Origin: Mytilus galloprovincialis
Lineage: Eukaryota > Mollusca > Bivalvia > Mytilida > Mytilidae
Direction of reading: 5' to 3'
Assembly (NCBI RefSeq): GCF_965363235.1
Contig: NC_134850.1
Coordinates: 46,062,602-46,126,601 of the forward strand
Length of the DNA stretch: 64,000 bases
The notes beneath the pieces are model-generated. The model saw only the letters and a list, made by a program, of their open reading frames with translations. It had not been told where the DNA came from and did no database searches. Of the stretch, positions 15,128 to 64,000 are shown piece after piece (positions within the stretch are counted from its first letter, which is position 1; each line of letters starts with the position of its first letter). The position numbers and the translations under genes are program-made.

Positions 15128-15138
15128 GGAAATAAAAG

Positions 15139-15565
15139 GAATATGCTTTTTTCAAATGTCAGCCACACCAGTAACCAAATTACACCATGATGACAACATA
15201 TAGTATTCAACATTACAGATGCTTCAATACAATATATCAACAAGTCAACGGAATATGCATTTTTCAAATGTCAGCCACACCAGTAACCAAATTACACCAT
15301 GATGACAACATATAGTATTCAACATTACAGATGCTTCTATACAATATATCAACAAGTCAACCACCCAAAGACACAAAATTATACTTATAGTTACCAAAAT
15401 ACACCTTGAGGGCAACAAAGGGTATTCAACGTTACAGATGCGTCCATACAATACGTTAATGAGTCCGCCACCGAAAGACACGAACACGTATAGTAACCAA
15501 AATACACCTTGAGGGCAACATAGGGTATTCACGATCAGAGATGTGTTCATGCAATACGTCAAGCA
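15139..15565. repeat. Tandem repeat, about four units of 103-112 bp
   Basis: The word GTAACCAAATTACACC or its variant GTAACCAAAATACACC recurs at 15171, 15283, 15390 and 15493, and GTATTCAAC-(A/G)-TTACAGATGC recurs in step. The first two units are almost identical; the last two are diverged and form a second subtype. Minus-strand frames across it merely follow the repeat. Confidence 0.75.
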
Positions 15566-38042: not shown

Positions 38043-38225
38043 CCAATGTACCGTTGTTTGTATGGAATTTAAAGAAGCTTATGTATCCAATACAAGCAAG
38101 GTTAATCTTTTGTCAACATGCTTGTATAAGATGTAAACGAAAACACACTTACAAGGTAGGTGGGAATAAGTTCCTTACAACAACCTGAACTCATTCTTCA
38201 AAATCAAAATGAAGAGTCGTGTGTT

Positions 38226-38605
38226 TAAAAGAGGCTGAGATGATTGTAGATGTTAGTGTAAGCTCCTCGGACTTTTTAGAAGAGGCTGAGATGATTGTAG
38301 ATGTTAGTGTAAGCTCCTCGGACTTTTTAAAAGATGCTGAGATGATTGTAGATGTTAGTGTAAGCTCCTCGGACTTTTTAAAAGATGCTGAGATGATTGT
38401 AGATGTTAGTGTAAGCTCCTCGGACTTTTTAAAAGAGGCTGAGATGATTGTATATGTTAGTGTAAGCTCCTCGGACTTTTTAAAAGAGGCTGAGATGATT
38501 GTAGATGTTAGTGTAAGCTCCTCGGACTTTTTAAAAGAGGCTGAGTTGATTGTAGATGTTAGTGTAAGCTCCTCGGACTTTTTAAAAGAGGCTGAGACTT
38601 TTTAG
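38226..38605 (+). repeat. 51-bp minisatellite, about 7.5 units
   Basis: The unit starts GAGGCTGAGATGATTGTAGA and ends GGACTTTTTAAAA. Because 51 is a multiple of three, one frame stays open throughout and reads a 17-residue repeat (EAEMIVDVSVSSSDFLK). Units differ at only a few positions (for example GAAGAGG or AAAGATG at the junction, one TATATG), which indicates recent expansion. No promoter, intron or flanking coding sequence supports translation. Confidence 0.88.
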
Positions 38606-41751: not shown

Positions 41752-41875
41752 ATGACTAAAAACGCCAGGGGAAACTGGAAGAACTGGTATGAGTTTCTAT
41801 TCTCAAGCATTGGTTGTGTTGTTGGACTCGGTAACATCTGGAGATTTCCGTATGTTTGTTATAAAAATGGCGGCG
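41752..41875 (+). CDS. SLC6 exon with TM1
   Basis: The exon body starts at 41742 after acceptor AATTGACAG. It codes [12 protein letters not shown] then TM1, and ends in a split Gly codon before donor GTGAG. Confidence 0.85.
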
Positions 41876-44800
41876 GTGAGTTTATCTCTTATATTTATGG
41901 GGGATATTTAAATGGTTATTTTATCAATATAAACATGTTATACAGAATATATCTATGAAATAGCAGAACAAACCGATGACAAACAAGACACCGGGGGTAA
42001 TCATTAGAGTGTTTACAAAACGTCGATGGAAGATGCTTTTAAATCGCCATGAATATACTAATAACGAAATGTATGTAGCGTTGCCAAAGAGACCAACTTT
42101 TCACATTCCTCTGTCCTTTCAATATATGTCCCTTTGGCAACCATATCCCATCTCCTTATTTTGAAGTTGTTATTAAACGTTTTTTTGAAGTGACCATGTT
42201 TGCATAAACCGACATAAATGCTTATACATGTACACAATGTATATGTTAGCGGCAATAAGTGAAATTAGGCATTAAGCTTAAATCCTAGGCAACAAGCTAA
42301 CGCCTAGGCATTAAGTTATTGCCTAAAATTTTCAGGCATTAAGCTTATAATTTCCTAAAATCTGATGATGATTATTCATCCTATTGCCGAACATAATTTT
42401 AAGCAATAAGTAGTAAACTCTGGAATTTATGCATATTTGGTGATTTATTCTTTATTTAAAGTCGTTTCTCAATTATATTTCTAATAATGCATGTATAAAT
42501 GTACATTCATTTTACAGATCTTCAAAAGTAAGTTTATTTAGTTATTTTAAAAGTTAAAAAACAGAATTAACTCATACTTTTTTCTTGTTTTTGAGTCATT
42601 ACAAAAAATTTAAATGGGGGGAGTGGGGAGATTCTATCATAGAATAATTATAATACTTAGTTGAAAATTTGTACACTTTTCTAGTCGAGCTGGTTTGAAC
42701 TGGTCAAAAGTAGACAAAATTAAGATAATTTTTTGCTCACACCATTTTCGATAAGTAGATTTTCTTTGATAACAGTTCCACAACTTGTGATAACAAAATG
42801 ATTTGAACATAATTTCTATCAAGTTTTCATATTTTTCGATTATTAATTGATGCGTTTTTATATAATAAACATATTTTATTAGTGATTTTAATTCCTGTCA
42901 CTTGTGGACAGTTGTCTCATTGGCAATCATACCACATCTTCTTTTTTATATTTAGGATGAAACTGGGCCCTGTAGTTTTTCATCAGTTATGGTAAAATTT
43001 GATTTTTTTTCTTTTGCTCATATTCGAACTGTTAATTGCAGTAATAAAATAAAGTACTTAGTATTTATATGAAAGATGCACGATTATATATTTAATTTTA
43101 ACTATTTACGATTAGTTTGTTCAATTTTGATATAAAAAAAAGTTATATTTTTTTGACTAATACTTATAATTATTTTCTAATGATGAATCGGTTTTTGAAT
43201 TATTGTATATAATAGTTGTTGGTTAGATTGGATACAATATTTCAAGTTTTCATTTGCTATTTTCTTTTACGTCAAAACTTAGGACAGCGGTTAGGACATT
43301 CTAGCTAAAATAATCCTCAGATACATGTAGCTTCGATGTGCATGCTCAGACATGTCGTAAGTAGGTCCCAACTTAGTTAAAATAATATCCTAATTTCTTT
43401 CCTAAGAATATCTTGTAGGACCGATCTAAGGATAGTTTCGATAAACAGGCCCCAGTTCTCATAATGTTATCATGTAATAAATATATTTTTATCTATAAAG
43501 AAATAAATGTCTTTTATTTACCCCTTATTTATATTTTAGGCATTGAGCTTAATGCCTGCACACATTTTTCAGGATTTAAGACTAATGCCTAACATCAGTT
43601 AGGCAATAGACTTTCTGCCTACTCGTTAGCTTATTGCCTAGGATTTAAGCTTAAAGTCATAAGAAACCTCAAATTAAAATACATTATGCATATGTTTTTA
43701 TAACTAAATGGATAGTTTTCATTATACAACTTATGGACAAATACTTTTTTCTGAGGAAAATTCTTTAATTTGTCCACACTTAGAGGGAAAACGGTACTAT
43801 TACATTTTCCCAGCATTAGGTTGGCCTTTTGTGTACCCAAGACAGGTGAAGGAAGTCAACTTAGGAGGACTGTGATTGGATGTAAGGGTACAATATATTT
43901 TTTTTTATTATCTATGAATAACTGTAGTGTGTAAATTTACAATATACATTTTAAAACCTATTGAAATATTTTCTAGAGAATTATTCAAAAAGGCTTCCAA
44001 AATTTCATAAATTTGGTGTAAATGGATAACATAAACAAGCTCCGTTGGGAATTGGTCATGGTACTATTTGGCTTCAATTGTTATAATAGAGTAATAAAGT
44101 ACTAACACCACACATAACTGTTTTATCCAGGTTTTTATTATTAAAACTGGTAAATTTAGAAAATGTTAATAGTATTGTCGCCTATGGCAGAATAAATAGT
44201 ACCGTTTTCCCTAGAAGAGGTTTACTTATTTTTAATTGCTGCCTTCCTTCCAGGAAGCAATTCGCCGACATATTTTCCGTATGCATAGTTACCTGAGCGT
44301 AATCCTCCTCGTAAAAATCCGGTGATCGCAATACGCATGGATCTGTCATTAAAATAAACAATTATCTGAGTGTACATGTTAAAAACACGTGCTCAATACC
44401 CATGCTTTTTGTTATTTGTTTACTACAAGTTGACAATCGGTAAACTTCGGCTTCAAAACACGGCATTTAATGAGCAGCCATATTTGTTTTAAAAATCATA
44501 ATAGACAGAGAGAACAAAAAATGACGATTAAACTATATATTTTCGGAAAAAATGAGAAATTCGTGCACAGAGGACTAAGTTTATGATATATACACGCATT
44601 GATTCAAGAATTGGATAAACATTATTTTTTACCACTCACTCGTTTCATATGACTTTAATGCCTAAATTCACTTATTGCCGCTGACATATATATATCATTG
44701 CCGATGATATCTAGTTTATATCATGAGAGATTTCAGATGGTTATTAACTACGACCATAACATTTATGTATTTTAATAGTTCATTTTCTATTATTCCAAAA

Positions 44801-47800: not shown

Positions 47801-50638
47801 TTTCAAATGTAAGCTCGAAGTTGACGCCTATGTCGTATTTATTGACATTCAGCGTGCTAATTATTTTGATAATTGTTAATGAAATATATAAATACATAGG
47901 AAGAAAAATGCATTCTAATCTAAACATTATAGATGTATCAATAGTCAATTTTTTCAAATTGTTTCTCCTACACACGAACTATTTCATTCTGATGTTCCGA
48001 TGCCATTATATACTTCATGTCTACCATTGCAATAAGTAAAACCTAATTGTTTTATTTTCTCAGGATTTCCAACAAATGTTGAAAAAATCTTTATAGAATA
48101 CATCTAGGAGGTCTTCAACAGCTAGTTTCACCAGTTTTAGGGCGTAACAATTAGGGTGGAGTATAATCATTGCACCAACTATATTATACTCCAAGCATTT
48201 AAACTGACTCCTCGATTGAAACATGACCTCAATGCGAACAATTTGAATATGAATTTATCATCATAATGATTTAATGTAAATTTTAACACAGTAAATTATC
48301 CTTTTATGGAGGCGTAAATAATTTTCATTCATAGTTCTAGGTCGTATGATACTTGATAGGTAATAAGACCACAAGAGGTCACACGATCGCTGACATCCTT
48401 TTGTAAAATTGTGTTGTATATATATAAATTGTTTAAACTTTAAAGTGTCAAAAGCTTGTGTCATTTGTAAAAAATATGTTCATTCGAAATAGTGCACTCT
48501 AAAGTCGACAAATTAAAAACGTACTTGAAGTTACCTCATTTAAATGTGACCCGACTGGAATAAGTAATAGGGGGAAAACTGGCCCGGGAAGAAAGTTGTA
48601 AAAATATAAAAACTGAAAAATCTGTAAAACATCATAATTTTATATAGATTGGATTCACTTGATTAACAAACAATTCGTAAATATCCAAGTTGGTCTCAGT
48701 TATGGGTCCTTATCAGTTTCTCTTTCTTTAAAGTGAATAGCTTGTGGTCACATGTTATACGTCTAACAATTTTAAACAAAGAGGTGGGGCCAATTTATCG
48801 GTTTTTTTTTTTCACAGAAGGGCCAATTTCAAAATGTGCCGACAGAATAAAATTCACTATAAAAACAAAAAATAAAAATGCTTTTTGATCAATATCTCGA
48901 TTTACATATATTATGATATGTGTGATCAATAGTTAATGTAACCCTAAAATAGGATGAAAGTCCAATATGCGGGATTTCGGGTGTTTTTGAGTGGGAAAAA
49001 CAGGGAATCCCCCCAGAAGGACATTTCAAACCAAAAAAAGTTATGTTTTTGTTATGACAGTTGTAATTCATACTACTTTTTTTTCTCAAAAACGAAATTG
49101 GTTTAGTGTGTCCTTAATACATAAAAAACAACTTTTTAAAGAAAAAAGTTGTAACATCGCTAAATTGTACCGATATATCTCCTTATTTAGAAATAAATAG
49201 ATAAGCATCGCCGTGGCTCCATCCGTAGTTCACAGAACTACTATTCAATTCAATTCTTTATTAACCAAATGTTTTACAACATATAGGTACATGTATTATC
49301 AATATATACTAAATACTAATTAAGGAAGGTTTTGAAGAAAAGGTTCGAATCTCGCTCAGATTATTTGCATTTTTTGTGTTGTTATATTAAAATTTAATGT
49401 TTCTATCATATTTTTTCGGATGTTTACTTAAATCATAGAGACATTCTGGTTCGTTTTGACCATGTAATTTACTAGTATATCATTTTACATGTATTAAAGA
49501 AAAAAATAATGTATCATTTATTGTGTGCATTCCAATGACTGTCCATACTCTTAACCTACTTTCTATTCGTGTGTTTACATTTAATACATATATTCAAGGA
49601 ACAACTGCGGTCAAACCGATGTAGGTGCCTGTACATAACCAATAACACGATAATTGATTCTATAGGAATGAAGCCCAAATGTTGCGGGTGTAATATACAC
49701 ATAACTTAAAATAAGGCCATTGTATACAAGTTTCAAAACAACACGACCAATTTTTCGAAATCTTTTTTGGACATGGTATTATATGTAACAAATGCAATAA
49801 ACAGCAATTGTGTCGCCAATTCACAAACTGTGTAGATACTAGTACTGAAATTTTTACCACCGTCCCTACACCGGTACCTAAGTCATCAGAAAATAAAAAA
49901 ACACAACAGAACAAATCAATTACACTAGTACTACAAATCGTGATTGTAGGTAAAACATCAAGAAGTTGTTGCATCTGTATCACAACGAAGGGCCGATTTG
50001 TTAAAATGCCAGAAAAGGCAATATAACATGTGTTAGTAACACAGGGTGATCTTTGACCAACTGATGTAAGATGTTCTCCAGTTAAAATCTATACATGTAT
50101 TATCTTATCTTATCTTATAGACGAAAAAACCTTAAAAGACTAGGACAAATACAGATATACATATATTCAGAATGAGAAAAACACGATTTGAATTTGTTCG
50201 ATATTATTTGGCTCCTTGACAAGTTACTTTGTATGGTACCTTGCATAAAGGATGTTAATAATAAAATAAAATGAATATTAAAAAATCAATAGTCTTGGTC
50301 TTGTTTTTGTAGGAATACCTGTTCAGGTTATGAAAATAGATGATGTGAGGTATTTTCATGTACTATATTTAGAATCTATCGGGCTATTCAAAACATGATT
50401 TACCTATCTTATCGAATTAAAAACAATTCCCGACAAATTAGCCCTACCTCTTTCTCATTCATTTAAAATGATAATGATAGAACATATTGATGGTACTACT
50501 TTCAGAAATAAAGTTCTTGAAATAACAGATGGCATAGGTACTCCAGGCGTTATACGATGGCAGCTTGTGTTATGTTTATTAGCAGCATGGGGAATTGCAT
50601 TCCTTTGTTTAATAAAAGGAATAGAGACTTCTGGCAAG
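41752..50638 (+). CDS. SLC6 sodium-dependent neurotransmitter/amino-acid transporter, 5' part, four exons, continues beyond window
   Basis: Join 41752-41875, 45250-45381, 46944-47205 and 50506-50638. All junctions are GT/AG with phases 1, 1, 2 and 0, giving 217 residues without a stop; the family has about 600. TM1 (about 15-36) carries the SLC6 signature [12 protein letters not shown] and KNGGG, which forms the sodium and substrate site. TM2 is residues 44-67 with the ELSYSQW region, TM3 about 88-117 with [11 protein letters not shown], and TM4 about 185-211. The large extracellular loop has the paired cysteines C126 and C135 and N-glycosylation sites N145, N149 and N161. Gly at position 25 instead of the Asp of monoamine carriers points to an amino-acid substrate (glycine, proline or GABA type); that is inference. 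ATG 41752 lies ten bases after an acceptor and gives a short cytosolic N-terminus, so an upstream coding exon is possible. The next exon (TM5 onward) was not found to 64000. Confidence 0.85.
42897..42950 (+). repeat. Retroelement tail end
   Basis: ACAGTTGTCTCATTGGCAAT followed by CATACCACATCTTC, the same ending as at 19910-19955. It lies inside the outer nested element. Confidence 0.6.
43655..44654. mobile_element. piggyBac-like element with TTAA target site, 1000 bp, nested
   Basis: Ends AGTCATAAGAAAC and complement GTTTCATATGACT are flanked by TTAA on both sides (43651-43654 and 44655-44658). The insertion splits the inverted repeat of the outer element exactly at its TTAA. No transposase frame is present, so it is non-autonomous. 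TTAA specificity is known for piggyBac; the family call rests on that. Confidence 0.75.
43785..44211. mobile_element. Innermost MITE, 427 bp
   Basis: Perfect ends GGGAAAACGGTACTAT (43785-43800) and ATAGTACCGTTTTCCC (to 44211) are flanked by TAGA on each side (43781-43784 and 44212-44215). It has no coding capacity and lies inside the TTAA element. Confidence 0.75.
44969..45140 (-). repeat. Abundant retroelement tail, minus orientation
   Basis: AAGAATGGAAATGGAGAATC, CACCAATGGGTCTTTAATAC and CCGGAGGCATGCTTCACCTG in order. It ends about 110 bp before the second SLC6 exon. Confidence 0.7.
45250..45381 (+). CDS. SLC6 exon with TM2
   Basis: Follows acceptor ATATCTCCAG, completes the split Gly codon and codes [18 protein letters not shown] and the loop to PLFR, ending in phase 1 before GTAATT. 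Confidence 0.85.
45620..46000 (+). mobile_element. Non-LTR (LINE) reverse-transcriptase remnant in SLC6 intron 2
   Basis: Pieces [32 protein letters not shown] and VGVKQGCI are conserved blocks of LINE reverse transcriptases of the jockey/CR1 type (KAFD and QGC regions). They lie in several frames with stops between, and the FADD catalytic block is not seen. Old, inactive fragment. Confidence 0.65.
46001..46943 (+). other. Rest of SLC6 intron 2
   Basis: No additional feature supported. Ends in acceptor TTTCTATGATACAG. Confidence 0.5.
46944..47205 (+). CDS. SLC6 exon with TM3 and extracellular loop 2
   Basis: Codes [20 protein letters not shown] through TEEFWE. It carries the two loop cysteines and three N-glycosylation sequons and ends in phase 2 before GTATGT. 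Confidence 0.87.
47360..47660 (-). repeat. Abundant retroelement tail, minus orientation, SLC6 intron 3
   Basis: AAAATTGAGAATGGAAATAG, GACCAAAGAGCAGAAAACTG and CTCGCACCCGTAGGC, then TTCGGACAGGCGTAAATATG. Confidence 0.65.
47661..50505 (+). other. Rest of SLC6 intron 3
   Basis: AT-rich intron. A possible tRNA-derived SINE trace lies at about 49205-49355. No extra exon recognised. Confidence 0.5.
49205..49355 (+). repeat. Possible tRNA-derived SINE, interrupted
   Basis: GCCGTGGCTCCATCCGTAGT resembles an A-box region and GGTTCGAATCTC (about 49342-49353) a B box. Between them lies an unrelated AT-rich insert of about 100 bp. Weak. Confidence 0.3.
50506..50638 (+). CDS. SLC6 exon with TM4
   Basis: Follows acceptor TACTTTCAG, completes a Glu codon and codes [11 protein letters not shown] then TM4 [21 protein letters not shown] to SGK, ending in phase 0 before GTAATA. 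Confidence 0.85.
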
Positions 50639-51639
50639 GTAATACAAGTCTTAGAAATATACAGCACCCAATTCGTTTAGCGATTACCTATAATCAAAGA
50701 TGTATTTGGTTTTACACCAGTAACAAGCTGTGCAACATGCACGTCAAGATTCAGCAATAGAAACAGTGCCATCAACTCAAAAGGAAAGTGTGTTACTACA
50801 CAAGTCATGCTTGAAATTGCCTCTTTTGTCGAATATTGGACATTCAAATTATCCTTTTCGTTTCAATAGTATGTCTAAAATGGAGAAACTTTTGCTTGTT
50901 ATTATTAGCTATAATAGATTTATAGGGTCACGATGGAGTTAGAATACAGAAAAGAGAAAAATTGCGCAAATTAAAAGAATGGGTATAAAGAATAGAAGTT
51001 AATGGGGTGCTTAAATATACATAATAGAACATCGTATACACAAAAAAAGACTAGTGTGGATCTAGCCGGCGTTAATATTCATGAGGCTAGCCGTCAATAA
51101 TATTCATGAGATCAAAACCGCGTTCGATGAAATGTTTTGGGTAGTTATTAGATTGTGACAATAAAATAACTTTTGCTGTTAATATCCAATATGGTTATGC
51201 TATTTATAGCAATATAAAGTAATTAGGAAATAGTAAGCCAATAGGTGTCTTCTGCAAGGTCCGCGTCATTTAAAATGAAAGTAAATGAAAAGTTTAATTG
51301 CATTGCCTCACACAACACAAAACAATTATGAACATTAACATGTTGTTATTATTGAATCAATGTAAACTATAGTAATTAAAACAAGATGATTAAATATAGG
51401 GTAATTAAATGGAATTAATTGTCATATGGGCATTCCATAATCTGTTCGTTGTCTACAAATATAGTCCAATTCTAAAACTAAAATATACAATACATACGAT
51501 AGTATCACACAATTAAAAAGATCAGAAAAACAAGAAACATAGTTTGTTGAAGGAATATAATAAACAGAAAAATAGAAACTGTCAATTACTATTTCAATGA
51601 CATAATTCTTCAAAATTACGGAGATCAATAAGAGTCTTT
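50639..51639 (+). other. Start of SLC6 intron 4
   Basis: No exon seen. The word TATTCATGAG occurs twice at about 51076 and 51100 within a short CTAGCCG-rich stretch. Confidence 0.45.
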
Positions 51640-54600
51640 AATCTCAACATTACCAGTCCATTTAATTGCCTCTAAAATGTCCCATAGCACTTATGCCCTA
51701 GACCCGTACGAGTTAGTCAGAAAAGGATAAGGGGGTACCCTGGTATATCACAAATTCGAAAATGAACTATTGCCGGCTGGCCAAACTAAGAGATTCTCCA
51801 CATCGGCCATTATACCAGAGGTAGAGGTTGGTATTGCCTCTAAAATGGCCCATAGCACTTATGCCCTAGACCCGTACGAGTTAGTCAGAAAAGGATAAGG
51901 GGGGTACCCTGGTATATCACAAATTCGAAAATGAACTATTGCCGGTTGACCAAACGAAGAGATTCTCCACGTGGGCAATGATACCAGAGGAAGAGGTACT
52001 TATTGCCTTTAAAATGGCCCATAGCACTTATACCCTAGACCCGTACGAGTTTGTCAGTAGAGGGTTCAAAGGGAGGATATGGTATCCCGGATACAACGAA
52101 TTCGAACTGAACTATTGCCGGCTGGCCAAACTAAGAGATTCTCCACATCGGCCATTATACCAGAGGTAGAGGTTAGTATTGCCTCTAAAATGGCCCATAG
52201 CACTTATGCCCTAGACCCGTACGAGTTAGTCAGAAAAGGATAAGGGGGGTACCCTGGTATATCACAAATTCGAAAATGAACTATTGCCGGCTGGCCAAAC
52301 GAAGAGATTCTCCACGTGGGCAATGATACCAGAGGAAGAGGTACTTATTGCATTTAAAATGGCCTATAGCACTTATACCCTAGACCCGTACGAGTTTGTC
52401 AGTAGAGGGTTCAAAGGGAGGATATGGTATCCCGGATACAACGAATTCGAACTGAACTATTGCCGGCTGGCCAAACTAAGAGATTCTCAAAATCGGCCAT
52501 TATACCAGAGGTAGAGGTTGGTATTGCCTCTAAAATGGCTTATAGCACTTATGCCCTAGACCCGTACGAGTTAGTCAGAAAAGGATAAGGGGGGTACCCT
52601 GGTATATCACAAATTCGAAAATGAACTATTGCCGGTTGACCAAACGAAGAGATTCTCCACGTGGGCAATGATACCAGAGGAAGAGGTACTTATTGCCTTT
52701 AAAATGGCCCATAGCACTTATACCCTAGACCCGTACGAGTTTGTCAGTAGAGGGTTCAAAGGGAGGATATGGTATCCCGGATACAACGAATTCGAACTGA
52801 ACTATTGCCGGCTGGCCAAACTAAGAGATTCTCCACATCGGCCATTATGCCAGAGGTAGAGGTTGGTATTGCCTCTAAAATGGCCCATAGCACTTATGCC
52901 CTAGACCCGTACGAGTTAGTCAGAAAAGGATAAGGGGGCTACCCTGGTATATCACAAATTCGAAAATGAACTATTGCCGGCTGGCCAAACGAAGAGATTC
53001 TCCACGTGGGCAATGATACCAGAGGAAGAGGTACTTATTGCCTTTAAAATGGCCCATAGCACTTATACCCTAGACCCGTACGAGTTTGTCAGTAGAGGGT
53101 TCAAAGGGAGGATATGGTATCCCGGATACAACGAATTCGAACTGAACTATTGCCGGCTGGCCAAACTAAGAGATTCTCCACATCGGCCATTATACCAGAG
53201 GTAGAGGTTAGTATTGCCTCTAAAATGGCCCATAGCACTTATGCCCTAGACCCGTACGAGTTAGTCAGAAAAGGATAAAGGGGGTACCCTGGTATATCAC
53301 AAATTCGAAAATGAACTATTGCCGGCTGACCAAACGAAGAGATTCTCCACGTGGGCAATGATACCACAGGAAGAGGTACTTATTGCCTTTAAAATGGCCC
53401 ATAGCACTTATACCCTAGACCCGTACGAGTTTGTCAGTAGAGGGTTCAAAGGGAGGATATGGTATCCCGGATACAACGAATTCGAACTGAACTATTGCCG
53501 GCTGGCCAAACTAAGAGATTCTCCACATCGGCCATTATGCCAGAGGTAGAGGTTGGTATTGCCTCTAAAATGGCCCATAGCACTTATGCCCTAGACCCGT
53601 ACGAGTTAGTCAGAAAAGGATAAGGGGGCTACCCTGGTATATCACAAATTCGAACTGAACTATTGCCGGCTGGCCAAACTAAGAGATTCTCCACATCGGC
53701 CATTATACCAGAGGTAGAGGTTAGTATTGCCTCTAAAATGGCCCATAGCACTTATGCCCTAGACCCGTACGAGTTAGTCAGAAAAGGATAAGGGGGGTAC
53801 CCTGGTATATCACAAATTCGAAAATGAACTATTGCCGGCTGGCCAAACGAAGAGATTCTCCACGTGGGCAATGATACCAGAGGAAGAGGTACTTATTGCC
53901 TTTAAAATGGCCCATAGCACTTATACCCTAGACCCGTACGAGTTTGTCAGTAGAGGGTTCAAAGGGAGGATATGGTATCCCGGATACAACGAATTCGAAC
54001 TGAACTATTGCCGGCTGGCCAAACTAAGAGATTCTCCACATCGGCCATTATACCAGAGGTAGAGGTTAGTATTGCCTCTAAAATGGCCCATAGCACTTAT
54101 GCCCTAGACCCGTACGAGTTAGTCAGAAAAGGATAAGGGGGGTACCCTGGTATATCACAAATTCGAAAATGAACTATTGCCGGCTGGCCAAACGAAGAGA
54201 TTCTCCACGTGGGCAATGATACCAGAGGAAGAGGTACTTATTGCATTTAAAATGGCCTATAGCACTTATACCCTAGACCCGTACGAGTTTGTCAGTAGAG
54301 GGTTCAAAGGGAGGATATGGTATCCCGGATACAACGAATTCGAACTGAACTATTGCCGGCTGGCCAAACTAAGAGATTCTCAAAATCGGCCATTATACCA
54401 GAGGTAGAGGTTGGTATTGCCTCTAAAATGGCTTATAGCACTTATGCCCTAGACCCGTACGAGTTAGTCAGAAAAGGATAAGGGGGGTACCCTGGTATAT
54501 CACAAATTCGAAAATGAACTATTGCCGGTTGACCAAACGAAGAGATTCTCCACGTGGGCAATGATACCAGAGGAAGAGGTACTTATTGCCTTTAAAATGG

Positions 54601-57088
54601 CCCATAGCACTTATACCCTAGACCCGTACGAGTTTGTCAGTAGAGGGTTCAAAGGGAGGATATGGTATCCCGGATACAACGAATTCGAACTGAACTATTG
54701 CCGGCTGGCCAAACTAAGAGATTCTCCACATCGGCCATTATGCCAGAGGTAGAGGTTGGTATTGCCTCTAAAATGGCCCATAGCACTTATGCCCTAGACC
54801 CGTACGAGTTAGTCAGAAAAGGATAAGGGGGGTACCCTGGTATATCACAAATTCGAAAATGAACTATTGCCGGCTGGCCAAACGAAGAGATTCTCCACGT
54901 GGGCAATGATACCAGAGGAAGAGGTACTTATTGCATTTAAAATGGCCTATAGCACTTATACCCTAGACCCGTACGAGTTTGTCAGTAGAGGGTTCAAAGG
55001 GAGGATATGGTATCCCGGATACAACGAATTCGAACTGAACTATTGCCGGCTGGCCAAACTAAGAGATTCTCAAAATCGGCCATTATACCAGAGGTAGAGG
55101 TTGGTATTGCCTCTAAAATGGCTTATAGCACTAATGCCCTAGACCCGTACGAGTTAGTCAGAAAAGGATAAGGGGGGTACCCTGGTATATCACAAATTCG
55201 AAAATGAACTATTGCCGGTTGACCAAACGAAGAGATTCTCCACGTGGGCAATGATACCAGAGGAAGAGGTACTTATTGCCTTTAAAATGGCCCATAGCAC
55301 TTATACCCTAGACCCGTACGAGTTTGTCAGTAGAGGGTTCAAAGGGAGGATATGGTATCCCGGATACAACGAATTCGAACTGAACTATTGCCGGCTGGCC
55401 AAACTAAGAGATTCTCCACATCGGCCATTATGCCAGAGGTAGAGGTTGGTATTGCCTCTAAAATGGCCCATAGCACTTATGCCCTAGACCCGTACGAGTT
55501 AGTCAGAAAAGGATAAGGGGGCTACCCTGGTATATCACAAATTCGAAAATGAACTATTGCCGGCTGGCCAAACGAAGAGATTCTCCACGTGGGCAATGAT
55601 ACCAGAGGAAGAGGTACTTATTGCCTTTAAAATGGCCCATAGCACTTATACCCTAGACCCGTACGAGTTTGTCAGTAGAGGGTTCAAAGGGAGGATATGG
55701 TATCCCGGATACAACGAATTCGAACTGAACTATTGCCGGCTGGCCAAACTAAGAGATTCTCCACATCGGCCATTATACCAGAGGTAGAGGTTAGTATTGC
55801 CTCTAAAATGGCCCATAGCACTTATGCCCTAGACCCGTACGAGTTAGTCAGAAAAGGATAAAGGGGGTACCCTGGTATATCACAAATTCGAAAATGAACT
55901 ATTGCCGGCTGACCAAACGAAGAGATTCTCCACGTGGGCAATGATACCACAGGAAGAGGTACTTATTGCCTTTAAAATGGCCCATAGCACTTATACCCTA
56001 GACCCGTACGAGTTTGTCAGTAGAGGGTTCAAAGGGAGGATATGGTATCCCGGATACAACGAATTCGAACTGAACTATTGCCGGCTGGCCAAACTAAGAG
56101 ATTCTCCACATCGGCCATTATGCCAGAGGTAGAGGTTGGTATTGCCTCTAAAATGGCCCATAGCACTTATGCCCTAGACCCGTACGAGTTACTCAGAAAA
56201 GGATAAGGGGGCTACCCTGGTATATCACAAATTCGAAAATGAACTATTGCCGGCTGGCCAAACGAAGAGATTCTCCACGTGGGCAATGATACCAGAGGAA
56301 GAGGTACTTATTGCCTTTAAAATGGCCCATAGCACTTATACCCTAGACCCGTACGAGTTTGTCAGTAGAGGGTTCAAAGGGTGGATATGGTATCCCGGAT
56401 ACAAGGAATTCGAACTGAACTATTGCCGGCTGGCCAAACTAAGAGATTCTCCACATCGGCCATTATACCAGAGGTAGAAGTTGGTATTGCCTTTAAAATG
56501 GCCCAAAGCACTTATGCCCTAGACCCGTACGAGTTAGTCAGAAAAGGATAAGGGGGGTACCCTGGTATATCACAAATTCGAAAATGAACTATTGCCGGCT
56601 GGCCAAACGAAGAGATTCTCCACGTGGGCAATGATACCAGAGGAAGAGGTACTTATTGCCTTTAAAATGGCCCATAGCACGTATGCCCTAGACCCGTACG
56701 AGTTAGTCAGAAAAGGATAAGGGGGGGGTACCCTGGTATATCACAAATTCGAAAATGAACTATTGCCGGCTGGCCAAACGAAGAGATTCTCCACGTGGGC
56801 AATGATACCAGAGGAAAAGGTACTTATTGCCTTTAAAATGGCCCATAACACTTATACCCTAGACCCGTACGAGTTTGTCAGTAGAGGGTTCAAACGGGGG
56901 ATATGGAATCCAAGATACAACGAATTCGAACTGAACTATTGCCGGCTGGCCAAACTAAGAGATTCTCCACATCGACAATTATACCAGAGGTAGAGGTGGG
57001 TATTGCCTCTAAAATGGCCCATACAACTTATGCCCTTGACCCGTACGAGTTAGTCAGAAAAGGATAAGAGGGGGGGGAGGGTACCGTG
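51640..57088 (+). repeat. Satellite array, left part: A/B dimers of 345 bp
   Basis: Built of two related monomers, A (176 bp) and B (169 bp), sharing GAACTATTGCCGGCTG, AAGAGATTCTCCAC, AAAATGGCCCATAGCACTTA and CTAGACCCGTACGAGTT. A contains GTAGAGGGTTCAAAGG and B contains AGTCAGAAAAGGATAAGG. They alternate with period 345; dimers start at 51939, 52284, 52629, 52974, 53319, 53832, 54177, 54522, 54867, 55212, 55557, 55902, 56247 and 56763. Two B monomers in a row open the array and recur at 53550-53831. A 76-codon frame starting at a TTG, not ATG, is open in every dimer. Near-identity of units indicates recent homogenisation. Not genes in my view; see findings. Confidence 0.95.
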
Positions 57089-57093
57089 GTATA
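57089..57093. repeat. Target-site duplication GTATA, left copy
   Basis: Matches GTATA at 60019-60023 on the other side of the LTR element; 5 bp fits BEL/Pao insertion. Confidence 0.8.
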
Positions 57094-60018
57094 TGTCGAG
57101 GCTAACTTCTAATATCGTATACAGAAAACAATACAACCATACAGTTTGACGTTTACTTCATTATAACATAACTGCTAAAGCGACGTCCCACACTGACGTC
57201 AACCCTAGATACATAACGGTAAATTGCGACGTCTTGACTCCCACGGTATTCTCGACATTCTCCGGGCGGCGAAAAGTAAATATCAAAATTAAATTACAAT
57301 CAAGAAAAAAAAATTTAAAATTACTGTCTCTTAAATTCAAAACTTAAACTTAACTTTAGCACAGTCACTAGCTTCCAGACTAGTTATCTTTCGGTTAGAT
57401 TCCAATGAGTCTATTTCGTATACACAAATCACAGTATGTCCATTTTATCTGTGTACCTATTCCTTCTTTCAATGAATAGTATCATGTTATAGGTTTTTGA
57501 AAGTAAGTCAATAAATCAAATATTTTAGTAACAGTCCATAATAAGTCATAACAGTTCAATAGATACGTATCATTCAGTCCATCTTTTGATATTTTCCCTG
57601 TCGGTTCTCCTTCCTAAACTCTCTCGATAATTTGGCAACGTGTCTGTTCCTTTATAATTTCTTCTAAGCCAAATTCCTCTGATTTATTCGAAACCAGTAC
57701 GTTTACTGAGATGCTGGATGTCGTAGACGAAAGTACCCTACCCGGCTGTAAGGGTCCTGATAGTAAGTATCCAAGCTTTGACTTAATCGCGATCGGTCCA
57801 TCTCCTCGTATTACTTTGTCTTCGATAAAGTCCCAATAGTGGTCGGCACCAATAAGTAATGATATCTCAAAATAATCGTCTTTGGTAACTGGGTGAGCGA
57901 GTCTTAATCCCTTCAGATAATCCATATTTCGGTTAACGTACCGCATATGATTATGTATTGGAACTGCTATGGTAGGAACAATAAGGACTTCAATCGGAAT
58001 TTTACGACTATTTTCGGTTTCGATAAAAACGGTGGTTGTGCGTAGTTCTCTCGTGCTCGTGTTGTCCTCTCCAAATGCCGAAAGGTGTACAACTTCAATT
58101 CCTTCAGTTTTCAAATTCAATTTCTTCGCTAGATTCTCTGTTAAAAAAGATCTTTGTGCACCCTCATCAAATAAAACATTCGTATCCATAGATATATAAC
58201 CTGCCCATACAGGAGCTACCGCCGTTTTCAGTAGCACATTTGTACGCATCTGTGTCGATGAATGCAAAACTTTAGTATCTTCCTGGTTTTCAGTGTCATT
58301 TATAAGATTGACTGGTGAAGATTGAATCTGTTTATTTGTATTGCTTGTAATGAACGCTAAACCATCGCTGTTAACATTATTACTCGCACTACATAAGCTG
58401 GAATGGTGTCTCTGGTTGCAGTGTCGACACGTGCGTTTCGATTGACACTCATTAGCATGATGATTTCCTAAACAGTTAAAACATAAATTATCACGAATTA
58501 CGATAGACATTCGGGCTGTGCTATCACTAATATTGGTACAGTTTGTTGGCGCATGTATCTCTTTACAAAAAACACATGGTCTCTCCGTAATATTCCGGGG
58601 TTGGCTCTTCGCGTTGTGTGCTGTGTGTATTCGCGGTGATTCTATTCCTGTATGAAATGTACATGTAGATGCGGTTGTGAAGTGACTTTCTGAAGACTCT
58701 AGATATGTACCTGTATTTTTTCCCGCCTCCATGATATGAATTTCGTTAAGTATACTCTTCCTCAAATCTTTCAAATTCCAACTTGACGGTCCGTGTTGTC
58801 TTGCTAGGTTTTGGCGTATTTCTGTGGGCAACTTGTTCAGAATAACGGGTACCAGTAGTGAACCATAAGTGTCTGTAGTCTGTCCGAGTGACTCTAGACC
58901 TCGTACGTAAGTTTCAGTTTTGTCATAATAATTGCGGAGGCTTACTAAAGTATAAATCGGAGGCGAAATCTCAAGTAGAGCTTGCATGTATGTTTGTATT
59001 ATAGTATGTATCTGTCCATACCTCTCTTGTAACAACGAAATAGCTTTGCCGTAATTAGTGTTTGTCATAGAAAAACCTGATATGATCTGAAACGCTTCTC
59101 CCTGTAGAACTGACTTTAAGTAGTTAAACTTCTGCACGTCGCTGAGTGTTGGATTTGTGTGAATAGATGTCTCATATGAATCCCAAAAGGATTGCCAATC
59201 TAAAATATTCCCTTTAAAAGTAGGCAAGTTCAACTTTGGTAATTTGTGGTACTGATTATTTGTGCTAGAAGACGAATGTAAACTTGGAATATGCATAGAC
59301 GGGTTTGTAGTAGGAATAATCTCTGATATAGCGGGGTTACTTGTATAAAACGAGGCTGCATTCGATTGTACATGAGATGTCGACGTGAAACAATTGGCGT
59401 GCGGGTTCAATTGAGAGGAGTCGCTTGCGGGTACACTATTTGCTGTAGGTGAAATCAAGGTATGCATGGGTGTATCAGAGGGAGTAACGTTACTAGCTTG
59501 AAAAACGGTAGTATTGACGGGTAAATTATGACTTTTCGACTGGGAAGGATTAATGAGTTTTCTAATTTGACGAATTTTTGAATCTAAATCGAACATGTAC
59601 TCATCTGTTTGTTGAATTTCATCCACCACGTCTTCATCCGAGCTTGCGTCCACAATTTTATCATTCAGATCTTTAAGAATATCCCTTTTCTGTAACATGG
59701 AATCTAAAATAGCTGTGACGTCCTCAATTTCTATCTCGGAAGTGTCTCGTATGTCTCCAAAATTCTTCCAAAGTCTTGTAATAGCTCCTTTATGTCCGGA
59801 ACGAATGGCTTTCAGCTTTGTATCCATTTTCCCTTTTGGTCACGGCACCATAAATGTCGAGGCTAACTTCTAATATCGTATACAGAAAACAATACAACCA
59901 TACAGTTTGACGTTTACTTCATTATAACATAACTGCTAAAGCGACGTCCCACACTGACGTCAACCCTAGATACATAACGGTAAATTGCGACGTCTTGACT
60001 CCCGCGGTATTCTCGACA
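57094..60018 (-). mobile_element. BEL/Pao LTR retrotransposon, shortened copy, minus strand
   Basis: LTRs of 164 bp (57094-57257 and 59855-60018), starting TGTCGAG and ending CTCGACA, differ at one position, so the insertion is young. A primer-site-like stretch adjoins the LTR at the 59855 end. The internal part holds a gag and protease frame only; no reverse transcriptase, RNase H or integrase is seen, so the copy is shortened and would depend on other copies. It interrupts the satellite array. Confidence 0.9.
57614..59827 (-). mobile_element. BEL/Pao gag-protease region (fossil)
   Basis: A long frame of 737 codons. In order: an N-terminal helical part, a Ser/Thr/Asn-rich spacer, the gag-type DUF1759 block (PTFKGNILDWQSFWDSYE), three zinc-knuckle-like Cys clusters (CVFC, CFNC, CRHC) and a DUF1758 aspartyl-protease-like block (LFDEGAQRSFLT). 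This order is diagnostic of BEL/Pao. Confidence 0.88.
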
Positions 60019-60023
60019 GTATA

Positions 60024-62335
60024 TCACAAATTCGAAAAATGAACTATTGCCGGCTGACCAAACGAAGAGATTCTCCACGTGGGCAATGATACCAGAGGAA
60101 GAGGTACTAATTGCCTTTAAAATGACTCATAGCACTTATACCCTAGACCCGTACGAGTTTGTCAGTAGAGGGTTCAAAGGGGGGATATGGAATCCAAGAT
60201 ACAACGAATTCGAACTGAACTATTGTCGGCTGGCCAAACTAAGAGATTCTCCACATCGACCATTATACCAGAGGTAGAGGCTGGTATTGCCTCTAAAATG
60301 GCTCATAGCACTTATGCCCTAGACCCGTACGAGATAGTCAGAAAAGGATAAGGGGGGGTACCCTTGTATATCACAAATTCGAAAAATGAACTATTGCCGG
60401 CTGACCAAACGAAGAGATTCTCCACGTGGGCAATGATACCAGAGGAAGAGGTACTTATTGCCTTTAAAATGGCCCATAGCACTGGTGCCCTAGACCCGTA
60501 CGAGTTAGTCAGAAAAGGATAAGGGGGGGGGGGGGTACCCTGGTATATCACAAATTCGAAAATGAACTATTGCCGGCTGGCCAAACGAAGAGATTCTCCA
60601 CGTGGGCAATGATACCAGAGGAAGAGGTACTTGTTGCCTTTAAAATGGCCCATAGCACTTATACCCTAGACCCGTACGAGTTTGTCAGTAGAGGGTTCAA
60701 AGGGGGGATATGGTATTCCGGTTTACAACGAATTCGAACTGAACTATTGTCGGCTGGCCAAAATAAGAAATTCACCACATCGACCATCATACCAGAGGTA
60801 GAGGTTGGTATGGCCTATAAAATGGCCCATAGCACTTATGCCCTAGACCCGTACGAGTTAGTCTTGAAAGGATAAGGGGGGTACCCTGGTATATCACAAA
60901 TTCGAAAATGAACTATTGCCGGCTGACCAAACGAAGAGATTCTCCACGTGGGCAATGATACCTCAGGAAGAGGTACTTATTGCCTTTAAAATGGCCCATA
61001 GCACTGGTACCCTAGACCCATACGAGTTTGTCGGTAGAGGGTTAAAAGGGGGGATATGGTATTCCGGTTTACAACGAATTCGAACTGAACTATTGTCGGC
61101 TGGCCAAAATAATAGATTCACCACATCGACCATCATACCAGAGGTAGAAGTTGGTATGGCCTATAAAATGGCCCATAGCACTTATGCCCTAGACCCGTAC
61201 GAGTTAGTCTTGAAAGGATAAGGGGGGTACCCTGGTATATCACAAATTCGAAAATGAACTATTGCCGGCTGACCAAACGAAGAGATTCTCCACGTGGGCA
61301 ATGATACCACAGGAAGAGGTACTTATTGCCTTTAAAATGGCTCTGAGCACTTGTACCCTAGACCCGTACGAGTTTGTCAGTAGAGGGTTCAAAGGGAGGA
61401 TATGGTATCACGGATACAACGAATTCGAACTGAACTATTGCCGGCTGGCCAAACTAAGAGATTCTCCACATCGGCCATTATACCAGAGGTAGAGGTTGGT
61501 ATTGCCTCTAAAATGGCCTATAGCACTTATGCCCTAGACCCGTACGAGTTAGTCAGAAAAGGATAAGGGGGCTACCCTGGTATATCACAAATTCGAAAAT
61601 GAACTATTGCCGGCTGGCCAAACGAAGAGATTCCCCACGTGGATAATGATACCAGAGGAAGAGGTACTTATTGCCTTCAAAATGGCCCATAGCACTTATA
61701 CCCTAGACCCGTACGAGTTTGTCAGTAAAGGGTTCAAATGGGGGATATGGTATCCCGGATACAACGAATTCGAACTGAACTATTACCGGCTGGCCAAACT
61801 AAGAGATTCTCCACGTGGGCCATTATACCAGTGTTAGAGGTAGGCATTTCCTCTAAAATGGCCCATAACAATCATGCCCTAGACCTGTGCAAATTTGTCA
61901 GCAGACGGTTTAAAGGGGGATATAGTATCCCGGTGTACAACGAAGTCAAAATGAAATATTGCCAGCTGACCGACTAAGATAATCTAAACGTGGACCATAT
62001 TAGCAGAGGTAGAAGTAGCCATTGCCTTTAAGATGGGCCATAGCACTAACCCTGATTGCGTTGTCAAACATATCAGATGTATGGAATAATGTTGCCTCGA
62101 AAATTACCCATGGTTCTTATGTCCTAGACCCGTACCTGTTGAACAGCAAAGGGAAGTACTCTTGTATATCACAAAGACCAAACTAAGAGATTCTCCTTGT
62201 GGGCTAACAAAAAGATTAGCGTAGGTGTTTTCTCTAAAAAGGCCCATGTATCGTATATCATAGATCCGTACGTATTGGTAGGAAAAGGGTAAGGGAAGTA
62301 CTCTTGTATATCAAAATATTCAAACATACTTTTAC
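60024..62335 (+). repeat. Satellite array, right part, increasingly diverged
   Basis: The same A/B satellite resumes directly after the LTR element, with dimers starting at 60047, 60570, 60916, 61262 and 61607. Two dimers are 346 bp: their A monomer is 177 bp, which keeps A and B in one frame over 101 codons. From about 61850 the monomers decay rapidly. Confidence 0.93.
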
Positions 62336-62925
62336 TTGCTGGTCATTTTAAAGGTAATTAGTACCTTAACCTCTGTATCATGGTCCACGAGGAGAATCTT
62401 TTAGTTTGACAAGTCGTCAATAGTTCAATCCGACTTTGAGATATATAAAGGTGCCCATCTTTCTCTTTGCTGACTAGGTCGTACGGTCTAGGGTATAGTA
62501 GTATGGGTCATTTTAGAGGCAATTCCTATTTCTTCCTCTGATATAATGACCCACGTGGAGAATTTCTTAATTTGGCCATCCGGCAATAGTTTTTTTCGAC
62601 TTCGTGATGAATCGGAGTACCACAACCCTTGTTATCCCCTCCTGACAAACTCGTACGGGTCTAGGACATAAGTACTATGGGCCATTATACAACTACTACA
62701 TATACCTCTTGTGTCATGACCCATGTGGAAAATGTCTTGGTTTGGCCAGCTGGCAATAGTTCATTTCGACTTTGTGATATATAAAGGTTCCAACCTTTCC
62801 TTATCCTTTCCTGGCTAAGTCGTACGAGTCTAGGGCATTAAAGATTTTTTGTCATTTTTGAGGCAATGGATACCTCTCCCTCTGATATAATGACTCGTGT
62901 GAATAATTCTTTCTATTCAAGCTCT
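62336..62925 (-). repeat. Decayed inverted edge of the satellite
   Basis: Read on the minus strand the satellite words reappear in degraded form: GAGAATCTTTTAGTTTG, TCGTACGGTCTAGGGTAT, TGGCCAGCTGGCAATAGTTC and CGTACGAGTCTAGGGCAT. At least three monomers are recognisable, all opposite in orientation to the main array. Confidence 0.85.
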
Positions 62926-63224
62926 AATGTCAACATGTTACAATGAATATGGGCAGCGAGAACGTTGCGTTTGTGATTTTGCTCTTAACATACTTGGGCC
63001 GCACATGAATTACTTTAAAATAAATGAAAGTGATCACAACATTAATTATCAATAAAATAAATTACTAGTAAAATTTTAAATTTATATGTAAAATATTTAA
63101 CAGCCCACGGTTTAAATTCATTTTAATGTCCATATGCTAATCACACGTTATCATTTAACTTTTCACGATTTATATTTAACACATGTTAGTCTATGTTTTT
63201 ATTTTCGTCTTTTCCTCACTCTGA
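62926..63224. other. Non-coding, no gene seen
   Basis: AT-rich spacer between the satellite edge and the retroelement remnant. Confidence 0.45.
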
Positions 63225-64000
63225 GCTGCTATATTTTCAAGTTCCAAAGAATTCAAGTTTGATGATTGGTCTAGATATCAAACCAGTTTTTGTTCGAATT
63301 ATGGCTGATCGTGTAAGTCCATCTTTGCCGTAAAAAAATTTGTCACTGATCGCCAAAGTCCAATTTACTCTAGATACATAGTCCTGAATCTGAACTACAT
63401 ATTTCCGACGTTAATGTTCTATGTGTTTCGATCTGTGTATCGGTAATATTTCCTAAGCGAATTTATGTATTCCTGCTTCCATCTTTTTATGTAGTTTTTA
63501 AGAATTAATGAAAGAAACTTCGATTGTCTAGCCAGTTACTGGTTCATGCGTAGTGTCTTTGGTTCCTGGTTGTAAACTACAGTCTTTAAGGCCGTTATAC
63601 GGTAGCATCTTGGTCCGTTTTCAATATAATAAATGTGACGGAGTAAGGGGTTCGTCGTCCGCGTTTGATCCGATGAAACGTATGTTAGTGGGCGATCACT
63701 GAGTAAACGTTCTACTTCAGTCATTATCGTGTTGAGTGTTTTATTGTCCATATGTGCTCGTTTAATTCAGTTTTTCGTTATTCCTCTCAATCTCTCCCAC
63801 CATCCACCGAACAAAATTGTTCCATAAGGATTAAGCTTCTCGGTTACATGATGATTTTGATAAATGTTCAATTTCTTATGCTCTCGCATCATACAAATCA
63901 TTTACAAATACTAAACGTGATGCATGGAAGAAGTCTAACAAAGCTCTTTGTTAATTAAAGCTCGATATAATATTGTCAACATAAAAGTATTTCTTTAACA
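63225..64000 (-). mobile_element. BEL/Pao pol end (integrase C-terminal region), broken, runs off the window
   Basis: Minus-strand words WWERL, TEVERLLSDRPLTYVSSD, KQEYINSLRKYYR and GKDGLTRSAI are the characteristic end of BEL/Pao integrases. The copy is old and broken in several places, and no LTR is seen beside it. It is a separate insertion from the element at 57094-60018. Confidence 0.75.

Follow-up and report, generated by a model that had tools for sequence, protein, structure and literature searches.

The 64,000-nucleotide stretch of Mytilus galloprovincialis DNA analysed here (the window; RefSeq assembly GCF_965363235.1, contig NC_134850.1, forward-strand positions 46,062,602 to 46,126,601) contains an array of two satellite monomers, A and B, which is very probably not a free-standing satellite and forms instead the left-hand arm of a foldback-type DNA transposon, large and non-autonomous, that moves by cut-and-paste. 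The window element spans positions 51050-88752 (37,703 bp), its right part lying past the window end and numbered in extended coordinates. It consists, in order, of a terminal inverted repeat (TIR) tip, ACTAGTGTGGATCTAGCCG (19 bp; also written ACTAGTGTGG), an end domain L1, the array in plus orientation, a core with retrotransposon remnants, the array in minus orientation, a second end domain L2, and the tip again. The individual features are as follows.

51042-51049, plus strand: left target-site duplication AAAAAAAG, 8/8 identical to the right flank, the ninth base differing
51050-51068, plus strand: terminal inverted repeat tip ACTAGTGTGGATCTAGCCG
51050-51664, plus strand: L1 end domain
51665-57093, plus strand: left satellite arm, A/B dimers
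57094-60018, minus strand: long terminal repeat (LTR) retroelement within the array, with 164-bp LTRs, a 741-aa open reading frame (ORF) and the target duplication GTATA
60019-62330, plus strand: second part of the left satellite arm, degenerate past 62053
62341-62892, minus strand: four inverted monomers (ABAB), the beginning of a fixed inner module, M1
62893-64000 and onward to extended coordinate 75031, no strand assigned: core, with retrotransposon remnants and a module termed X
75032-87986, minus strand, outside the window: right satellite arm
past 87986, to 88752, outside the window: L2 end and TIR

The arms of the window element thus occupy 51665-62053, broken by the LTR element, and 75032-87986. 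The position of the second arm was anticipated from module X, which matches the far right of the element in reverse and therefore implied an inverted array at ~75,030, a figure worked out before the sequence was fetched and unrecorded beforehand; the array begins at 75,032. Opposed arms are seen directly in the window element, in C3_10.75, in C6_41.5 and in a miniature, L072, while the other elements are represented by inverted tips and one arm, or by tips only. Complete arms, miniatures excluded, measure 3.3-21.9 kb. The two end domains share the 19-bp tip and are 79% identical over 333 bp.

The same ends recur throughout the genome. Twenty 10-kb stretches from 14 other dimer loci were compared with the window (15 loci in all), and at each of the 12 loci with the left edge covered homology starts at the same sharp tip, the outer flanks being unrelated. 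The L1 domain is 99-100% identical at 40 scored places (of 260 candidates), and to the right of the array lies either M1 or X. The assembly, 98.8% of which resides in 14 large contigs, has one match to the primer Me15 and none to Me16. In it, the tip 19-mer has 175 exact matches against none for its reversed control, and 22-mers specific to L1 and L2 have 89 and 84 matches, respectively. Convergent neighbouring tips (<100 kb apart) form 77 pairs, all of which (77/77) combine L1 with L2. The paired elements measure 2,273-57,811 bp (median 30,399), 71 of the 77 exceed 20 kb, and they are present on all 14 large contigs, albeit unevenly (chi-square p 0.014; 13 on C9, 2 on C1). Flanks were sampled at 24 elements, namely 22 of the 77 exact pairs together with C12_20.4 and C3_47.7, the window copy being excluded. 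A perfect 9-bp target-site duplication is present in 23 of them, whereas none of 552 pairings of left and right flanks from different elements agrees over 9 bp. Even an interior-deleted copy of 2,273 bp, L071 (G000:C1:19190981-19193453), still has its 9-bp duplication. The family displays two features of foldback transposons: inverted tandem-repeat arms, and precise ends with target-site duplications.

Several observations weigh against a transposon. Nineteen of 173 tips lack a partner; at least four unpaired tips (C12_20.4, C3_47.7, C3_1.53 and C13_4.0) have an L1/L2 partner with an altered tip. One of the 24 sampled elements, C11_52.3, has no duplication, and neither does L072 (G000:C8:14040651-14044095; 3,245 bp), in which the arms are joined directly and the core is lost. 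The duplication of the window copy extends over 8 of 9 bp; its 8-bp AAAAAAAG is perhaps a 9-bp duplication altered by poly-A slippage. Finally, the MULE (Mutator-like element) domain PF10551 has at least 140 genome matches (150 of 324 candidates scored) and the Merlin domain PF12762 (DDE_Tnp_IS1595) has 48 (63 of 63 candidates scored), none of them inside the 77 elements. Among the matches scored, no MULE or Merlin transposase is thus encoded by the elements themselves, and a source outside the 77 is possible.

By itself, the 9-bp length of the duplication, within the 8-11 bp of Mutator elements, suggests membership of the Mutator superfamily. Three MULE-domain matches lie 3.3, 6.8 and 9.3 kb outside element tips (G000:C10:74632207, G000:C9:72864246 and G000:C7:87347288), the third adjoining an unpaired L1; three such matches are above a rough expectation for 140 in 1.4 Gb, yet all are on the outer side. 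The L2 tip region has a short motif, AGCCGGCAATA, in common with the monomer, but we do not put it forward as a transposase site: this degree of sharing arises in 5 of 300 shuffles, and for L1 sharing of this type is reached by 56 of 300.

The distribution of the dimer bears on whether the array could be an ordinary dispersed or centromere-type higher-order satellite that lies in a gene by chance. Such a satellite would account for the dimeric higher-order unit and for the recurring order of variants, but it is highly unlikely in view of the defined ends, the 9-bp duplications and the dispersal over 14 large contigs. Moreover, of 20 dimer places among the matches listed out of 242 (35 of 917 candidates scored), 18 fall in exact L1/L2 pairs when read by eye against the tip pairs, C12_20.4 lies in a pair with one altered tip and C1_109.0 lies beside an unpaired L1; free arrays may exist elsewhere. 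Rolling-circle elements are not known to make target-site duplications. A carrier of the Helitron/Helentron type, as for the satellite-like repeats of oysters (Cg_HINE, pearl and MgE), has a precedent in bivalves, where most of the monomers are 160-180 bp long (PMC7492417), but it is refuted by the 9-bp duplications at 23 of 24 elements, which accompany identical inverted tips, and we give it practically no credence.

The internal structure of the array is partly as the sequence-only reading had described it. Two monomers, A (176 bp) and B (169 bp; ~82% identical to A), do form a 345-bp dimer, whereas the strict alternation claimed for them fails because BB and AA steps are present. Nor is 51640-62335 satellite throughout, since 57094-60018 is the LTR element inserted into a monomer. 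Tandem Repeats Finder reports a period of 345 at 51665-57072 (15.7 copies, 94% matches) and of 346 at 60040-61885 (5.3 copies, 88% matches). Compared with the dimer at 52284, the 13 full dimers at 51939-56591 show 96.5-100% identity, and those past the LTR element 90-97%. The linked variants GGCCTATAGC and CTCAAAATCGG co-occur, as had been noted, in the dimers at 52284, 54177 and 54867. Within the window element CTCAAAATCGG is confined to these three, and among the sequenced stretches compared from the 15 loci it is found in the window copy (3) and C12_20.4 (2) only; GGCCTATAGC has a further copy at 61515 and seven more in the right arm. The recurrence of a variant dimer order at an offset of 2583 bp likewise holds, with a 1058-bp exact repeat, a length matched by permuted dimers in 1 of 300 trials. 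The array is therefore a multi-monomer higher-order unit with high identity between units, but the likeness to centromeric alphoid DNA drawn by the sequence-only reading is unsupported, because the arrays are short and dispersed, lie between transposon ends and belong to elements with 9-bp duplications. Long single-site arrays with chromosome-specific units, the alphoid trait, contrast with the dispersed arrays of 3.3-21.9 kb seen here.

The larger order, the 2,583-bp block, is a single local two-copy duplication. Among 16 arrays from 15 elements (350 full dimers, only full dimers at >=90% identity being kept), no dimer order common to different elements was seen: when 120 array pairs were compared, only 2 scored above every one of 12 shuffles. 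Between these arrays, the consensus units are 0-7 letters apart. Identity within arrays is mostly about that between arrays, and consensus units specific to each element were rejected for this reason; three arrays, C9_1.46, C10_41.2 and C10_34.9, have a higher internal uniformity (0.984-0.995) about the shared consensus. The window element's own two arms (0.956) resemble each other no more closely than arms of different elements do (0.949-0.991). In our reading, the elements draw on one shared pool of variants and the order is rewritten separately in each, the 2,583-bp block being one such local event.

Each dimer also contains a 94-aa ORF, so that the array could in principle be a protein gene built of coding repeats. 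Of 233 ungapped dimers (among the 350), 187 keep the ORF intact, and a per-occurrence count with transitions unweighted gives a synonymous share of 0.31 against 0.22 expected. In a per-variant-type count with transitions weighted, however, the share is as expected (85/343, p 0.61; omega ~0.94), and the 94-aa frame is no better than other frames and has no Pfam match. With the two synonymous counts differing and no clear selection, a coding repeat was rejected and is extremely unlikely.

The core occurs in two orientations. In strand terms, M1 is turned towards L1 in 25 of 38 elements and towards L2 in 13 (from the best 40 of 97 candidates, 38 of which lie within known elements), and X is at the end opposite M1 wherever both sides are covered (C9_58.4, C10_34.9, C12_48.9, C9_1.46 and the window). 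Perfect duplications flank seven flipped elements. The two orientations are best explained as inversion isomers that arose when the inverted arms recombined. A core tree with 26 members (all 13 L2-facing and 13 of the 25 L1-facing, ~1 kb each, one of 647 bp) has 4 orientation changes (4-5 in bootstraps) against a shuffled mean of 9.0, and 0 of 500 shuffles are as low. This clustering of the isomer state, on a tree with no well-supported branch and at most one change forced, counts against recurrent flipping. It is what would be expected if the two orientations were two old subfamilies derived from a single inversion, an alternative that we regard as possible, if somewhat doubtful: the best tree needs 4 changes, and C13_7.3 is flipped among unflipped nearest relatives, on a weakly supported branch. 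Flips in the core have happened, probably several times but perhaps not often, and the isomer state is inherited and away from free equilibrium.

Decayed retrotransposon material is present in the core, as indicated by one core ORF that shares 42% identity over 104 aa with the ORF of the LTR element, in the DUF1758 region. We take this material to be of the BEL/Pao type, and a minus-strand piece of 151 aa, judged by eye, to be its reverse transcriptase. No Pfam match at 0.01 was found in the 7 core ORFs scanned (of 50 with >=55 aa). The core is also partly palindromic, with inverted repeats of ~77-80% identity around 72.5 kb (extended coordinates 70789-74500). The LTR element at 57094-60018, which sits in a satellite monomer, is itself young and small. 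Its two LTRs differ at 1 position, the target duplication is 5 bp, and its gag/protease-like ORF carries DUF1759 and DUF1758.

Foldback elements with tandem-repeat arms are already known. FB/FB-NOF of Drosophila melanogaster and Galileo have long inverted repeats with internal tandem repeats, and FB makes 9-bp duplications; both are much smaller than the mussel element, and they are likened to it by structure, not by sequence. The Mytilus satellites Mg1-Mg3 and ApaI have a monomer length similar to that of A/B, again a likeness of length and not of sequence. The former, in HSP70 introns of Mytilus, were reportedly described by Kourtidis in 2006 (cited in PMC7492417 and PMC5139131) and share the intronic location seen here. 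In the open-licence literature, a search on Mytilus satellite DNA and ApaI found no papers, and no earlier report of this element was found.

The closest published relative is Tetris, a foldback transposon of Drosophila virilis. According to PMC4079207, which also places Galileo in the P superfamily, Tetris appears to be non-autonomous and has an outer end, a tandem-repeat domain (~220-bp units), and inner and middle domains; it makes duplications of 8-10 bp and is placed in Mutator by its authors. Its TIRs reach 1,735 bp, against arms of 3.3-21.9 kb in the mussel, and it has three structurally complete copies, against 77 paired copies; dimeric units and two core orientations also seem to set the mussel element apart. 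For Tetris, its authors raise the possibility that transposition was impaired once the arrays became larger (PMC4079207); the large-armed mussel copies, by contrast, have perfect duplications, although their arm size at insertion may have differed. In bivalves, the Helentrons Cg_HINE, pearl and MgE are, like the mussel element, mobile carriers of ~160-180 bp tandem repeats, but they are of rolling-circle type with short arrays (up to six repeats in pearl; PMC7492417). Teratorn of medaka, likewise a giant transposon with TIRs, also has long inverted repeats, and a large inversion distinguishes its subtypes, as here; it differs in joining a herpesvirus to piggyBac and in its transposase, and satellite arms go unmentioned in the passage that describes it (PMC6431247). 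What seems new in the mussel is that arms and elements are so large, that the units are dimeric, that copies with perfect duplications are so numerous and that the core occurs in two orientations.

A mechanism that would connect these features begins with a Mutator-superfamily transposase acting in trans, which would cut at the tips and insert the element at target sites opened with a 9-bp stagger. Through unequal exchange, an arm would change in length and gain local higher-order repeats, the 2,583-bp block among them, and homologous recombination between the inverted arms would invert the core. The window copy would have inserted in an intron of an SLC6 transporter gene, its left arm being entered later by the small LTR element. 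Slightly more likely than not is a recent burst of giant satellite-armed transposons (71/77 at 20-58 kb), in which the inverted arms would act as recombination hubs that flip the core in place and rebuild array order, cut-and-paste movement would disperse the higher-order satellite over all chromosomes, and 20-kb arms would be no bar to transposition, contrary to the suggestion made for Tetris.

That the array lies inside a transporter gene, as the sequence-only reading had supposed, is borne out by SLC6 (PF00209) exons on both sides of the element. They match the Pfam SNF profile in the same order and strand (1-40, 159-210, [element], 204-250, 251-284, 282-337 and 326-365), which puts the element within an intron, with splice sites assigned by eye. 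Two of these exons are located to the left of the element.

41767-41886, plus strand: SLC6 exon, SNF profile 1-40, E 2.3e-15
50501-50656, plus strand: SLC6 exon left of the element, SNF profile 159-210, the match running slightly past the splice site

With the element this intron is nearly 39 kb, and without it the intron would be roughly 1 kb. Elsewhere in the window, a 51-bp tandem repeat at 38224-38597 (7.3 copies, 97%) is open on both strands as 17-aa repeats and possibly coding (plus-strand example LKEAEMIVDVSVSSSDF), and a tandem repeat of ~107-112 bp at 15138-15562 comprises two near-identical copies and degenerate ones.

The family provides a countable bivalve case of a higher-order satellite that spreads within a DNA transposon with target-site duplications, unlike the published bivalve cases found, which are carried by rolling-circle elements. 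Its copies are a trap for assembly and gene annotation. At the same time, the many marked copies make it possible to test how satellites are dispersed along chromosomes and whether inversions are driven by the inverted arms of transposons.

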